Source of the DNA: an uncultured Brachyspira sp.
GTDB lineage: Bacteria; Spirochaetota; Brachyspiria; Brachyspirales; Brachyspiraceae
Reading direction: 5' to 3'
Assembly (NCBI RefSeq): GCF_944388875.1
Contig: NZ_CALXKQ010000019.1
Coordinates: 1 to 61,826, forward strand
Length of the DNA: 61,826 nt
Shown: positions 12,951 to 23,439 of the stretch, one piece after another
Position numbering within the stretch: the stretch's first letter is position 1
Layout: each line of letters starts with the position of its first letter
The notes under the pieces: model-generated
The model's input: only the letters and a program-made list of their open reading frames with translations
Databases searched by the model: none
Told to the model about the DNA's origin: nothing
Position numbers and translations under genes: made by a program

Positions 12951-13262
12951 ATGGGAATATCAGATGATATCAAATCAGGTTTTTATGCTGGAATAGGCAT
13001 GATGCTTAAAGGAAAAGAAAAGTTGGAAGATGCAGCACGTGAGTTTATTAAAGATAAAAATGTTAGTGCTGAAGAGGGAGAGAAATTTGTAAAAGATATG
13101 GTAAATAAAGCATCAGAAACAAAGGAAGAGGTTACTCAATTTATTGATGATAGAGTAAAACAAGTTATAGATAAAATGGGTTATGTAAAAAAAGAAGAAT
13201 ATGAAAGCATGAGAAAAGAATTAGATGAATTAAAAGCATCTATAAATAAAGATCAGCAGTAA
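12951..13262 (+). CDS. Phasin-like coiled-coil protein
   Basis: This 103-residue, highly charged, almost fully helical protein has a short amphipathic glycine-containing N-terminus (GFYAGIGMMLKGKEKLEDAA), an EKFVKDMVNKASETKEEV segment and a coiled-coil C-terminus. The pattern fits phasin-superfamily small proteins, but homology is weakly supported and no polymer-synthesis gene is nearby. An AAAGGAG site lies about 8 bases before the ATG. It precedes the UbiB-family kinase by about 85 bp on the same strand. Confidence 0.55.
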   Translation: MGISDDIKSGFYAGIGMMLKGKEKLEDAAREFIKDKNVSAEEGEKFVKDMVNKASETKEEVTQFIDDRVKQVIDKMGYVKKEEYESMRKELDELKASINKDQQ

Positions 13263-13347
13263 ATCATAAATATTAAAAAATGAAAATGCATTATTAAAGT
13301 ATATTAATATATATATTTTATTAATGCATTTTTTTCAGGGAATGAAA

Positions 13348-15027
13348 ATGAATAATATGAAATCTATAAAGAGGGCTAGAGAAATCATTTCTATAATAGT
13401 GGCTTACGGATTTAGAGATATTATAGATATGACCCCAATATTAACAATAATAAAGAATCCTATAAAAAAGCTTAATATAAAATATAAAGGTGTTGATTTA
13501 AGCAAATACACAAGAGGCGAAAGAATAAGAATGGCTTGTGAGGATTTGGGAACAACATTTATAAAATTGGGTCAAATATTATCTAATAGAAATGATATAC
13601 TTCCTAAAGATATTACAGATGAGTTAAGCAAACTTCAAAATCATGTAAAACCTTTCGATGAGCAAGAAGCCATTAAAATCATAGAAACAGAATTAGGCAA
13701 AACTATAGATGAAGTATTTGAAACATTTGATACTAAGCCCAAAGCTAGTGCATCAATATCTCAGGTACATATTGGTGTTTTAAAAAATGGAGAAAAAGTA
13801 GCTATAAAGGTAAAAAGACCTAATATAGAGGATAATATACTTACAGATGTTGAGATTATAGTTTGGCTTTCTAATATCATTGAAAAGCATAATGAGGAGT
13901 TTGCTCTTATGAAGCCCCAGAAACTTATTAATGCTTTTAAAAGTCAGCTTTTGCAGGAGTTAGATTTTAACTTTGAAAAAAATAATACAATGAAATTTGC
14001 TAAATACTTTGAGAATAACAAGAATATAAAGATAGCAAAAATATATGAAGAATACAGTACAAAAAATATATTAACTATGGAGTATATAGATGGTATAAAG
14101 ATATCAGATATATCTCCTGATGATACCAAATATGATAGAAAGAAATTAGTATCTATAGGTATTGATGCTGTACTTGAACAGATATTCATGCTTGGCTTTT
14201 TTCATGCTGATCCTCATCCAGGTAATTTAATGGCATTGGAAAATAATGTTTTATGTTTTTTGGATTTTGGTATGGTAGGTTTTATTCCTCCTAATTCAAA
14301 GGATGCTTTTTCATCTCTTATTATAAGTATCAATAATGCTGATTATTTAGCTTTATCTAAGGCTATACTTGACTTATGTAATAAAAGCGATATGAGAAAT
14401 ATGGAAGATTTTAATATGGCTATATTTGTTTTAGTTAATAAATATATCGATATGTCATTGGATAATATCAATATAGAGGATGTATTTAATGAGCTTATAA
14501 CTATAATAAGAGAGTTTAGATTGAGTTTGCCTAGCAATATTATGCTTTTAATAAAATCTTTAATCGTTCTTGAGGGTGTTGGAAGAAATTTAGATAAAGA
14601 TGTAAAATTGATAGAACATATAAAACCGTTTGCATTTAAATATATAAAAGAACAAATAAAACCAAATAATCTATTAAAACAGGCCAAGAGTTTAATAATT
14701 GATTATTCAAACATATTAAAGAATCTGCCTTCAAATTTAGGTGATTTAGCATCTGTAATAAAGAAAGGAAGCATGAAAATTCAGCTTGAACACAAGAAGC
14801 TGGAATCATTATCAAATACTCTTGATAATTTAGCGGACAGATTAAGTTATTCTATAGTATTAGCTTCTCTCATTATGGCTAGTGCTTTGATTATTACAAG
14901 CAAAACACCTCCATTATTTCATGATACATCAGTTATAGGGATGATTGGTTTTGCTGTTTCTGGTATAATGGGATTTATAATGATAATAAGCAGAGTAATA
15001 AATAAGTATTTTAAGAAGAAAAAGTAG
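13348..15027 (+). CDS. ABC1/UbiB-family atypical kinase
   Basis: This protein of about 559 residues carries the hallmark motifs of UbiB/ADCK kinases: LGTTFIKLGQILSNR (the KxGQ motif), KASASISQVHIG (the Ala-rich nucleotide loop), AIKVKRP (lysine), GFFHADPHPGNLM (catalytic loop) and CFLDFGMVG (DFG-like). Two hydrophobic helices close the C-terminus. In respiring bacteria these proteins support quinone synthesis. No quinone genes are visible here, so a role in lipid or isoprenoid handling is only a guess. ATG 13348 is chosen because CAGGGA lies 7 bases upstream; an ATG at 13324 would add eight residues without a binding site. Confidence 0.85.
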   Translation: MNNMKSIKRAREIISIIVAYGFRDIIDMTPILTIIKNPIKKLNIKYKGVDLSKYTRGERIRMACEDLGTTFIKLGQILSNRNDILPKDITDELSKLQNHVKPFDEQEAIKIIETELGKTIDEVFETFDTKPKASASISQVHIGVLKNGEKVAIKVKRPNIEDNILTDVEIIVWLSNIIEKHNEEFALMKPQKLINAFKSQLLQELDFNFEKNNTMKFAKYFENNKNIKIAKIYEEYSTKNILTMEYIDGIKISDISPDDTKYDRKKLVSIGIDAVLEQIFMLGFFHADPHPGNLMALENNVLCFLDFGMVGFIPPNSKDAFSSLIISINNADYLALSKAILDLCNKSDMRNMEDFNMAIFVLVNKYIDMSLDNINIEDVFNELITIIREFRLSLPSNIMLLIKSLIVLEGVGRNLDKDVKLIEHIKPFAFKYIKEQIKPNNLLKQAKSLIIDYSNILKNLPSNLGDLASVIKKGSMKIQLEHKKLESLSNTLDNLADRLSYSIVLASLIMASALIITSKTPPLFHDTSVIGMIGFAVSGIMGFIMIISRVINKYFKKKK

Positions 15028-16715: not shown

Positions 16716-18464
16716 TTAAGCATTGATTAATGCCGCTAAAAATAGTATATATAGTGGAGAATCTATAAGTATTGAAAATAAATGTCTGCTTGTTATAATC
16801 TTTTTTTTCATTACAACAAAAGAAATTATACTGCTGTATATAACTGGGATAAAATATTTTAATTTATTTATTTCCAATGGAAATTTATTAATCACAATAC
16901 CAATAATCATAAATAATATTAATACAAGTGGTATTATACGTGTTATTATTGCTAATTTACTAGAATCTATATATGTTGTTAAAGTTACAGCACCTGCTAT
17001 TTTATCGCTTTGAGAGAATTTGATTTCTATTAATGCCTGTCTTATGAACATAAATAAAAATACTATAGCGGTTGAAAATAAGTATAAAAATAATTTTTCT
17101 TTTATTATATTTCTATGCATTATAAATATAGAGCCGTTGAGAAGAACTGTAACTGCTGCTGATGTAACTACTGCTTTAAATGGTATAAGCTTTTTGAATA
17201 ATTTAAAAAATATAGAAGTTTCAAATCTTGACTTATTCTCAAAACTGATATTATATCCAATTCCAAGCAGACTAGATAGTATTGACAGCATTAATATACC
17301 AACACTCATTTTATATGAAAAATAAAACATTAATAAAGCACTTATTGCTATAATCGACATGAAGAATACTTTATTTTTCTGATAAAATAAATATCTTCTT
17401 TTATCGCTTATTTTTATAGTGTAGTTGCTGTATCCATTGCCTAAACTCATATAAAGGTAGTATAAAGCTGTTATTATACCTATTTGGAATTGAAACGGCT
17501 GAGATAATATATCATATATAGCATAAGACATTAAGAAAGCACCTGCAGAAAAGAATATATATCCGTAATTTAGAAAATCAAATATTTTAGATAAAGATTT
17601 TGTTATAGGGCTTGCATATTTATCTTTTATAGTCTGAGCTACATCTTCTATAAGCCAATCTGGAGTTGAAGCCCCAGCCATAATTCCTATATTTTTATAT
17701 TTAGACAGATCTATCTTTTCTAAATCTTCTTTGAATTCAACATAAAATGAAGGTTTTATTGCCGATGCTATTTTGTATAGATTTCTAGTATTACTGCTTT
17801 CAGAACCTCCAATTACAAGCACAGCATCATTTCTTTTTGCTATTTCTAAAATTTCTGTTTGTCTTTGTTCTGTAGCTTCACAAATAGTATTTTTTATTAT
17901 TATTTCTTCAGCATTTTTATATCTATCTTGGATTTTTGATACGAATTTATCAAATATATTTTTTTGTAAAGTAGTCTGAGCTACTATTAGAGTCTTTTTA
18001 GGTTCCTTTGGTAATTTATCAATATCTTCATCTTGATATACAACATAAACATCATTTGCATATCCGCAAACGCCGATAATTTCAGGATGATTAGGATTTC
18101 CTATTACTATAACTCTATAACCAAGCGAACTATGTTTTTTTACAAGACCTTGAATTTTAGCTACATATTTGCATGTAAGATTAACTATTTTTTTAGCATG
18201 ACTAGAAAGTGCTTCTCTTCTATTTGGAGAAATGCCATGAGCTCTTACGATAACAGTTTTACCATCTAAAACAGACATATCCTCATCATCTTCATAAGTT
18301 TTTACACCAATATTTTCCAACATATCAAGAGTTTGAGGATTATGTATTAAATGTCCGTCTATATATATATCGCCGTTATTTTTAGCTGCCTGAGAAAATG
18401 TATTTTCGACAGCGTATTTAACGCCATCACAAAAACCTGCAAATTTACCTATATCTACGTTCAT
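16716..18464 (-). CDS. ispH: IspH fused to a UbiA-like membrane domain
   Basis: Residues 1-285 or so form a complete IspH (4-hydroxy-3-methylbut-2-enyl diphosphate reductase), the last enzyme of the MEP isoprenoid pathway. The three [4Fe-4S] cysteines are at 12, 98 and 195. The substrate residues are in GHLIHNP and NPNHPEIIG, with GGSESSNT near 219. IspH is normally about 280-320 residues; this protein has 582. The extra C-terminal part has about eight hydrophobic helices and the outline of a UbiA prenyltransferase. However, the Asp-rich motifs are degenerate: NGYSNYTIKISDKR where NDxxDxxxD is expected, and RQALIEIKFSQSD for the second motif. It lies 12 bp after rpmB, so probably in one operon. 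Coupling of isoprenoid production to a membrane step is inferred. Confidence 0.87.
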   Translation of the reverse strand: MNVDIGKFAGFCDGVKYAVENTFSQAAKNNGDIYIDGHLIHNPQTLDMLENIGVKTYEDDEDMSVLDGKTVIVRAHGISPNRREALSSHAKKIVNLTCKYVAKIQGLVKKHSSLGYRVIVIGNPNHPEIIGVCGYANDVYVVYQDEDIDKLPKEPKKTLIVAQTTLQKNIFDKFVSKIQDRYKNAEEIIIKNTICEATEQRQTEILEIAKRNDAVLVIGGSESSNTRNLYKIASAIKPSFYVEFKEDLEKIDLSKYKNIGIMAGASTPDWLIEDVAQTIKDKYASPITKSLSKIFDFLNYGYIFFSAGAFLMSYAIYDILSQPFQFQIGIITALYYLYMSLGNGYSNYTIKISDKRRYLFYQKNKVFFMSIIAISALLMFYFSYKMSVGILMLSILSSLLGIGYNISFENKSRFETSIFFKLFKKLIPFKAVVTSAAVTVLLNGSIFIMHRNIIKEKLFLYLFSTAIVFLFMFIRQALIEIKFSQSDKIAGAVTLTTYIDSSKLAIITRIIPLVLILFMIIGIVINKFPLEINKLKYFIPVIYSSIISFVVMKKKIITSRHLFSILIDSPLYILFLAALINA

Positions 18465-18476
18465 TATTTTAGAATT

Positions 18477-18668
18477 TTATTTTGCTTTTACTATTTTATT
18501 GCCCTTTATACACTTAGTGCAAACTAATGCTTTTCTTACAGAACCATTTAATTCTATTTTAATATTTTGTAAATTAGCATTAAAAGAACGTTTAGTTTTT
18601 ATATTAGAATGGCTTACACTATGACCATTTTGCTTACCTTTTCCACAAATTTCACATACTCTTGCCAT
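18477..18668 (-). CDS. rpmB: Ribosomal protein bL28
   Basis: This 63-residue basic protein starts [21 protein letters not shown] and has a second pair in CTKCIKG, giving the two CxxC motifs of the zinc-binding form of bL28. The start at 18668 follows a clear GGAGG site 5-6 bases upstream; a longer frame from 18680 would read through that site. The gene has a consensus promoter and leads into ispH. Confidence 0.95.
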
Positions 18669-21195: not shown

Positions 21196-23439
21196 ATGAA
21201 AATAAAAAAAATAATAGCTACTATAGCTTTATTATCATTTACATGGTCTGTTCTTCCTGCACAAACTTATGAAGATGCTGCTAGAATAACTGAAGAGGCA
21301 GATAATCTTCAGAATGAAGGACAGTATCAGCAGTCTTATGATAAATCACAGGAGGCATCAGATACTATAGATAAGGCTACTATAGCTTTATTTTATAGAT
21401 TAATGAATGCTAGAATTAATAAAACTAAAAATGATGCAAATGCTGCTATAACTGAGATAAATCAAATGGGAGCTTCTTCTGATAATCAGTTTAAAGCTAA
21501 GTATGAAGAAGCAGTTAAATATTTTGATGAAGGTAATGCTAATATAGGAAGTGTTCCTGACCCAAATACTGTGCCTCAATCAGAAGAAGAATTTACAGCA
21601 GCTTCTAATACATTTAACACAGTTTTAGAATCTTTTAATAATGCTTTATCATCAGCTAACAGTGTTAAAGAAGGATATTTAGGAAGAGAAAGAGATACAG
21701 CTTCTAAAGCTATAGCTGATGCTAAAACTAAATATAATGCAGCTTTAGGTAAAAGTATAAAAGCTGGTGATAATAATGATAAGTCAGTTTCAGGTGCTTT
21801 GGCTAAAGCAGATGAAGCTTTGAAATCTGATAATTTTGCAAGCGTTCAGCAAAATGTTGCTGCTGCTCTTGCAGGCATAACTAAAGCAGAGGCAGATGCA
21901 AAAGCTGCAGCTGAGGCTGCTGCCGCTAAAGCAGCTGCAGAAGCAGAAGCTAAAAGAAAAGCTGAAGAAGCAGCCAGACAAAAAGCTGCAGAAGAAGCTA
22001 GATTAAAAGCAGAACAAGAAGCTAAGGCTAAGGCAGAAGCAGAGGCAAAAGCTAAAGCGGAAGCAGAAGCTAAGGCTAAGGCAGAACAGGAAGCTAAATT
22101 AAAAGCAGAACAAGAAGCAAAAGCTAAGGCAGAAGCAGAGGCAAAAGCTAAGGCTGAACAAGAAGCTAAATTAAAAGCAGAACAAGAAGCAAAAGCTAAG
22201 GCAGAAGCAGAGGCAAAAGCTAAGGCTGCAGAAGAAGCTAAATTAAAAGCAGAACAAGAAGCAAAAGCTAAGGCAGAAGCAGAGGCAAAAGCTAAGGCAG
22301 AACAGGAAGCTAAATTAAAAGCAGAGCAAGAAGCAAAAGCTAAGGCTGAACAAGAAGCTAAATTAAAAGCAGAGCAAGAAGCAAAAGCCAAAGCGGAAGC
22401 AGAGGCTGCTGCTAAAGCAGCTGCAGAAGCAGAAGCTAAAAGAAAAGCTGAAGAAGCAGCTAGACAAAAAGCTGCTGAAGAAGCTAGATTAAAAGCAGAA
22501 CAGGAAGCAAAAGCTAAAGCAGAAGCAGAGGCTAAAAGAAAAGCTGAAGAAGCAGCTAGAGCAAAACAGCAGGCTATAGATAAAGCTAGACAGGATATAA
22601 ATAATGCTCAGCAAAAATATAATGCTCTTATAAGTGATAATACTATCACTAGAGGAGATAATAATGATCAGAATATTTCTACACTTTTAGCTGATGCTAA
22701 TAGAGTACTTGAAAATGATCCTGCTGGTGCAAGTCAGAAAGCTTTAGAGGCTTCTAAGAATATGGATGATTTGATTCAGGCTCGTAATGAGGCTATAGCT
22801 AGAGAAGAAAATCAAAAGAATTTAGAAGAAGTTAAAAATAGATATCAGCAACTTATTGATGACGGATATATAATTCCAGAAACTGATGAAGATGTTAATT
22901 TATCTCAAGTTATAAGAGAAGCTGAAGATGCTATTAACAATAATAATAATACTTTAGCTGAGGAAAGAATAAGTCAGGCTACTCAGACAATGAATGCTAT
23001 ATTTGAAGCTGGTCCTAAAAGACCTATAGATGGTGATTTAATGGATGCAGATTTAAATGCTGATAATGGTTATATAATAGATGCTAACAGCGGAAGAAAT
23101 GTAAATGCTGATGGTAAAGTTACTGTACTTCCTATGTATTATGTAGTTGTACAAAGAACTCCTTTAACAGATGCTTTATGGAGAATTGCTGGGTATTCTT
23201 ATATATATAATGATCCTATACAATGGTACAGATTATATCAGGCTAATAGAAATGTATTGAGAGATCCTAATAACCCAGACTTGATATTACCAGGTCAGAT
23301 ATTGACTATACCTAGTATGAATGGTGAAGAAAGAGCTGGAACTTATGATCCTACTTTAGAGTATCTTACTTATGATGAGGCTATTATTTTAAGAGAACAG
23401 CAAAATGCTCAAACTGTAGAAGCTGAACCTGCTGAATAA
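21196..23439 (+). CDS. Exported LysM protein with long Ala/Lys/Glu coiled coil
   Basis: This 747-residue protein has a signal peptide (MKIKKIIATIALLSFTWSVLPAQ). A helical region of about 200 residues is followed by about 220 residues of AEAKAKAEQEAKLKAEQ-type repeats (21888-22560). Two related helical blocks follow, each with GDNNDQNIS-like motifs. The C-terminal module has YYVVVQRTPLTDALWRIAG, NPDLILPGQILTIP and a conserved QWYRLYQANR, which fits a LysM peptidoglycan-binding domain. I infer a periplasmic spacer that anchors to peptidoglycan; the long coil resembles TolA-like bridges. An AAGGAG site precedes the ATG. It is in an operon with the upstream lipoprotein. Confidence 0.8.
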   Translation: MKIKKIIATIALLSFTWSVLPAQTYEDAARITEEADNLQNEGQYQQSYDKSQEASDTIDKATIALFYRLMNARINKTKNDANAAITEINQMGASSDNQFKAKYEEAVKYFDEGNANIGSVPDPNTVPQSEEEFTAASNTFNTVLESFNNALSSANSVKEGYLGRERDTASKAIADAKTKYNAALGKSIKAGDNNDKSVSGALAKADEALKSDNFASVQQNVAAALAGITKAEADAKAAAEAAAAKAAAEAEAKRKAEEAARQKAAEEARLKAEQEAKAKAEAEAKAKAEAEAKAKAEQEAKLKAEQEAKAKAEAEAKAKAEQEAKLKAEQEAKAKAEAEAKAKAAEEAKLKAEQEAKAKAEAEAKAKAEQEAKLKAEQEAKAKAEQEAKLKAEQEAKAKAEAEAAAKAAAEAEAKRKAEEAARQKAAEEARLKAEQEAKAKAEAEAKRKAEEAARAKQQAIDKARQDINNAQQKYNALISDNTITRGDNNDQNISTLLADANRVLENDPAGASQKALEASKNMDDLIQARNEAIAREENQKNLEEVKNRYQQLIDDGYIIPETDEDVNLSQVIREAEDAINNNNNTLAEERISQATQTMNAIFEAGPKRPIDGDLMDADLNADNGYIIDANSGRNVNADGKVTVLPMYYVVVQRTPLTDALWRIAGYSYIYNDPIQWYRLYQANRNVLRDPNNPDLILPGQILTIPSMNGEERAGTYDPTLEYLTYDEAIILREQQNAQTVEAEPAE
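21888..22560 (+). repeat. Low-complexity KAEAEAKAK coding repeats
   Basis: Codons for Ala, Lys, Glu and Gln alternate in units of about 11 residues (33 bp), for example gcagaacaagaagctaaa and gcagaagcagaggcaaaa. Blocks are nearly identical to one another. The first and last blocks (around 21940-22010 and 22430-22500) repeat the same AEAKRKAEEAARQKAAEEARL sequence, suggesting duplication of a larger segment. Confidence 0.85.

Follow-up and report, generated by a model that had tools for sequence, protein, structure and literature searches.

IspH fused to a predicted UbiA-fold membrane domain with altered aspartate motifs in Brachyspira

Known IspH-UbiA fusions and the Brachyspira gene

Fusions of IspH to a UbiA-type domain were described in 2015, when 47 such sequences were reported, all said to come from sulfate-reducing anaerobes (Rao et al., 2015; PMC4746011). 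The UbiA part of the sulfate-reducer proteins carries two DXXXD repeats and was assigned to PT_UbiA_5 with its role left open, while the full-length IspH-UbiA could not be expressed in that study (PMC4746011). In the known UbiA structures Mg and substrate are bound through both Asp-rich motifs (PMC7839719). A further member of the fold, UBIAD1, acts as a sensor of an isoprenoid (GGPP) on the rate-limiting HMG-CoA reductase, and work on it has used the N102S form, in which activity is blunted (PMC9314443). The main text of the 2015 study makes no mention of Brachyspira or spirochaetes (PMC4746011), and no earlier report of an IspH-UbiA fusion in spirochaetes was found in the open-access literature, where the name IspH-UbiA turned up in one further paper only.

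The window analysed here is a stretch of 61,826 nucleotides from an uncultured Brachyspira sp., in which ispH is joined to the coding sequence of a membrane domain (Table 1). The initial annotation presented this fusion as unusual for IspH; the fusion is real, although it is not new, since the architecture has been known from the report of IspH-UbiA in 2015 (PMC4746011), and the spirochaete protein is a degenerate form of a fusion already described. What is new is the spirochaete clade itself, the conserved loss of metal ligands, the lack of a further UbiA in the tested Brachyspiraceae, the strong purifying selection on the domain and its clean loss in one close relative.

Table 1. Features of the fused gene and its upstream neighbour in the window
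Feature	Position	Strand	Remarks
ispH-ubiA-like fusion gene, 582 aa	16716..18464	minus	Met1 at 18464, stop codon 16716-16718
IspH (LytB) domain, residues 1-282	17619..18464	minus	PF02401 E 5e-80; catalytic set complete
Predicted UbiA-fold membrane domain, residues 283-582	16719..17618	minus	Nine membrane-length helices; AF2 model and structure matches
Degenerate first Asp motif, residues 343-354, NGYSNYTIKISD	17403..17438	minus	Of N-D-x-x-D-x-x-x-D, Asn343 alone remains
Altered second motif, residues 475-491, RQALIEIKFSQSDKIAG	16992..17042	minus	Glu480, Gln485, Asp487 and Gly491 conserved; Phe483 replaces middle Asp
rpmB (ribosomal protein L28)	18477..18668	minus	Directly upstream of ispH, same direction

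The initial annotation had read 16716-18464 as one protein, and the ORF at exactly these coordinates is unbroken from its ATG start, lying on the minus strand. Its claim of a complete IspH at the N-terminus is likewise borne out, the LYTB profile (PF02401) matching residues 7-280 of the window protein over positions 5-267 of 267 with all catalytic positions kept. In an alignment of 31 fused proteins the cluster Cys residues 12, 98 and 195 are invariant, as are His41, His76, His126, Glu128, Thr164, Thr165, Ser223, Asn225 and Ser266, with position 224 (Ser or Ala) the sole varying one among the catalytic positions checked. By profile and catalytic residues the IspH half is complete and a predicted HMBPP reductase, and no second IspH was found in the genome of the window.

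Predicted fold and altered aspartate motifs

Residues 283-582 of the window protein gave no Pfam or NCBIfam match of note, and none to PF01040 (Pfam UbiA) at E up to 1. At E up to 0.01, PF01040 matches 19 of the 31 fused proteins, a single one of them lying above the gathering cut-off (36.3 bits vs 34.2), and in four Brachyspiraceae the match falls exactly on the fused gene. An AlphaFold (AF2) model of residues 283-582, built from an alignment of the window protein with 17 genome-collection loci, has a mean pLDDT of 84 and a pTM of 0.85 and consists of nine membrane-length helices with a short linker helix, the full-length model having a pLDDT of 88 and a pTM of 0.80. With the C-domain model Foldseek placed UbiA homologues at ranks 1-14 at modest E-values (0.005), such that the fold assignment stands on rank, coverage and Z combined. 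In VIA-align the best PDB match was the Aeropyrum UbiA (Z 18.0, 3.3 Å over 256 residues), with the Archaeoglobus UbiA at Z 15-17 and soluble prenyl synthases, which have the helical core in common with UbiA, scoring lower. A wide C-domain profile searched against PDB sequences reached chlorophyll synthase at E 0.048 only, and profile comparison with six canonical UbiAs of the same phylum gave probabilities of 1-29%, this small and diverse set being a poor template, so that the fold search was used instead. An unrelated membrane family was rejected, UbiA structures heading both the Foldseek and the VIA-align lists, and as modelled the C-domain takes the UbiA fold. Structure prediction and comparison, together with the PF01040 matches in relatives, uphold the UbiA-like landmarks first noted, and of the "about eight helices" the membrane domain stands while the count does not. 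That the fused protein joins IspH to a UbiA fold is close to certain.

The Asp motifs had been described as replaced, and the two strings quoted for them, NGYSNYTIKISD and RQALIEIKFSQSD, are both present in the window protein. For motif 1 the description holds, Asn alone remaining of the catalytic N-D-x-x-D-x-x-x-D. Across ten Brachyspirales-type proteins this Asn is kept in all, D2 is Gly, Asn or His, D5 is Asn and D9 is Ile, Leu or Met; in nineteen other fused proteins D2 is Asn, D5 is mostly Glu or Asp, and D9 is hydrophobic, as it is in every fused protein examined. For motif 2 the description holds in part. The D-x-x-x-D of positions 4 and 8 is absent from the window protein, which has Glu480 at position 1, Phe483 at position 4 and Asp487 at position 8, but Asp487 does not vary among the fused proteins and Glu480 occupies a position that is Asp in relatives. 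Position 1 is Glu (nine) or Asp (one) in the ten Brachyspirales-type proteins and Asp in the nineteen others, position 4 is Phe, Thr, Ser or Asn in the former and Ala, Gly or Asp in other fused proteins, and position 8 is Asp in 31/31. Four residues (N1, R475, D8 and G491) are kept in 10/10 Brachyspirales-type proteins. Read in this way motif 2 is reshaped and not lost, and because the pattern of replaced ligands is fixed across the Brachyspirales-type proteins it points to a polar site that is kept and not to random decay.

These motifs bear on the suggestion that the UbiA-fold half has remained an active prenyltransferase within the membrane, its metal site being unusual, and that IspH would supply it with donors derived from DMAPP/IPP (as in the Rosetta-stone view put forward by Rao et al., 2015), a reading judged unlikely though worth keeping in view. 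It draws on the joining of two isoprenoid functions in one protein (PMC4746011) and on motif 2, in which Asp/Glu-1 and Asp-8 are kept at the spacing of chlorophyll synthase and in which the relative G201 retains both Asps (DVQGD). Chlorophyll synthase, a UbiA enzyme, reads DFKSVEGD at motif 2 and is also without the middle Asp, so that loss at position 4 alone is no proof of a dead enzyme. The missing motif 1 Asps would be a stronger sign of one than the loss at position 4, their positions being replaced in 10/10 Brachyspirales-type proteins, with D9 hydrophobic throughout, against the use of both motifs for Mg and substrate in known UbiA structures (PMC7839719). In addition, no acceptor pathway is visible in Brachyspira.

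Distribution, selection and gene neighbourhood

The fused gene is present in 18/18 other same-genus genomes sampled, such that every sampled Brachyspira genome carries the fusion, a check proposed in the initial annotation, and a search of 393 genomes of the phylum matched 26 same-genus genomes, that of the window included. A misassembly or chance ORF was rejected on this distribution and on the purifying selection described below. Fused frames were also found in further Spirochaetota families (f2, f9, f12, f20, f27, f28, f31, f38, f41 and f46), and the IspH of most other members of the phylum is about 290-320 aa long. In genomes of f31 (e.g., G143, G172 and G186) the IspH matches cover ~1,030-1,050 bases and lie in frames 410-505 codons long, a greater length than is usual for IspH. 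A scan of the genome collection for stand-alone relatives of the C-domain returned Brachyspira and two other spirochaete loci only, both fused, and no convincing stand-alone relative was found among the 393 phylum genomes, the match in G272 being short and containing a stop.

A second IspH is present in each of G030 and G114. In G114 an IspE-like GHMP kinase (PF00288, PF08544) is fused to a complete IspH in a frame of 544 aa (L106:714-2348), which is followed by an IspG-like gene, and G114 carries an IspH-UbiA fusion as well (L107). The IspE-like-IspH pairing is absent from the list of IspH fusions in PMC4746011, and, as it was seen in one genome, contamination is possible.

In a maximum-likelihood tree of the IspH domain in Spirochaetota all fused proteins form one group with support of 88/81, which is not full, and the only single-domain protein inside this group is that of G069, sister to the fused protein of G061 from the same genus. 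The G069 frame (L096:1459-2388) stops right after IspH, the UbiA-fold domain being cleanly absent, with rpmB still upstream and a DUF4912 gene still downstream. The tree gives moderate support to what would be one fusion within the phylum, followed by a single loss of the domain. As G069 lost the domain and kept IspH with its rpmB neighbour, IspH does not depend on the UbiA-fold domain for its action, and the clean loss means that at least one lineage can do without the function of the domain.

NG86 comparisons of the window with twelve Brachyspira relatives, made for the two halves apart, gave dN/dS of 0.06-0.15 for the C-domain vs 0.06-0.10 for IspH in eleven of the twelve pairs, and omega of 0.38 and 0.14, respectively, for the most distant same-genus pair (L045), all of these values being rough with synonymous distances near or above 1 and YN00 mostly giving no estimate. 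Between most Brachyspira species the C-domain is under strong purifying selection and is not decaying, which would also suit an active enzyme. It sits poorly with a passive membrane anchor, a domain that only holds IspH at the membrane around a pocket without ligand. The lost metal ligands and the fact that G069 dispenses with the domain are what such an anchor would predict, but the selection matches that on the catalytic domain between most species, the best-conserved residues are concentrated at the two motifs instead of being spread over the helices, and nine helices make a costly anchor, so that this reading is improbable.

Seven same-genus and three same-family genomes of Brachyspiraceae were tested, and a search that matched 14/14 control genomes found no UbiA in them besides the fused domain. 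Elsewhere, almost every genome with the fusion also encodes separate UbiAs, with none found in G062, and the question raised at the outset of whether other UbiA genes exist is answered differently for the two sets. As the fused domain gives the only UbiA match in these Brachyspiraceae genomes, where there is a match at all, it does not serve to make quinone or haem O; the classical MenA, UbiA and CtaB steps appear to be absent there and the domain would serve something else. G019, G020 and G030 possess further UbiAs and already show the Brachyspirales-type motif pattern, and by parsimony the motifs would therefore have changed before Brachyspiraceae lost their other UbiAs.

Each Brachyspiraceae genome tested has one trans- and one cis-prenyl synthase. 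The main isoprenoid needs are likely undecaprenyl lipid and tRNA modification. This seemingly limited isoprenoid use, with a membrane fold that is without a full metal site, could be fitted to a polyprenyl-lipid transporter or flippase built on the UbiA fold, but nothing in the analysis indicates transport, we know of no UbiA-fold transporter and the reading is very improbable.

The position of rpmB directly upstream of ispH is shared by Brachyspira and by G019 and G020 (the Brachyspirales-type linkage). In other fused families a GspN-like (type II secretion) gene, identified by eye, lies directly upstream of ispH-ubiA (L080:3001-3960, L083:3015-3950, L086:2991-3926, L087:3282-4277 and similar loci). 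In the window, 12951-15027 holds an ABC1/UbiB-type kinase (PF03109) beside a phasin-like gene, and no non-fused UbiA was found in this genome; an operon of ispH with the kinase was rejected, its position not being kept in all Brachyspira loci. At 21196-23439 the window encodes a protein of 747 aa that contains a long repeat tract of Ala, Glu and Lys and whose C-terminal part may be LysM-like.

Proposed role and comparison with known systems

Judged from conservation the UbiA-fold half is probably, if by no means securely, a non-canonical ligand-binding membrane module that tethers IspH and does not act as a prenyltransferase. IspH would make IPP and DMAPP at the membrane, and the UbiA-fold half, with most metal ligands lost, would no longer carry out canonical Mg-dependent prenyl transfer. 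A selected polar pocket made up of Asn343, Arg475, Glu480, Gln485 and Asp487 would be retained. This putative pocket may bind an isoprenoid (di)phosphate or a polyprenyl lipid, by which IspH would be tethered at the membrane, and the bound module may report the isoprenoid level to IspH or hand its product to membrane users, e.g., undecaprenyl synthesis. The loss of the domain in G069 and the C-domain omega of 0.38 for L045 count against a ligand-binding module. Catalysis with one metal or at a changed metal site is also conceivable, since the two acidic residues that motif 2 keeps match chlorophyll synthase.

By analogy, a former prenyltransferase might have turned into a built-in sensor through which IspH is tuned by prenyl diphosphate or polyprenyl phosphate in the membrane, which would make it the bacterial equivalent of UBIAD1 on HMG-CoA reductase, although this is rather unlikely. 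The spirochaete branch separates two ideas, in that the domain is strongly selected though its metal site is worn and Brachyspiraceae have been found with no other UbiA. If isoprenoid is indeed bound without transfer, a direct link would run from the membrane isoprenoid level to the last MEP step, and the spirochaete fusion would offer a convenient test system with the natural deletion in G069 as a control.

Among known systems, the IspH-RPS1 fusions (PMC4746011) also join IspH to a C-terminal partner that is unnecessary for catalysis, but there the partner consists of ribosomal protein S1 repeats, with no membrane domain. UBIAD1 and HMG-CoA reductase likewise tie a UbiA-fold protein to an enzyme of an isoprenoid pathway, but are separate animal proteins acting on another pathway enzyme, with sensing established for UBIAD1 and a hypothesis only here. 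The UbiA prenyltransferases (Aeropyrum 4OD4/4OD5, Archaeoglobus 4TQ3-6 and chlorophyll synthase) share the nine-helix fold, the placing of motifs 1 and 2 at the ends of helices 2 and 6, respectively, and the residues Asn-1 and Asp-8, whereas the Brachyspira domain is without the motif 1 Asp ligands and without the middle motif 2 Asp, the latter as in chlorophyll synthase. The sulfate-reducer IspH-UbiA has the same order of an N-terminal IspH and a C-terminal UbiA fold in one chain, again in anaerobes, but has two DXXXD motifs where here motif 1 is degenerate and motif 2 altered, and its genomes are reported with a separate UbiA/MenA, in contrast to the Brachyspiraceae tested, in which the fused domain stands as the only UbiA.
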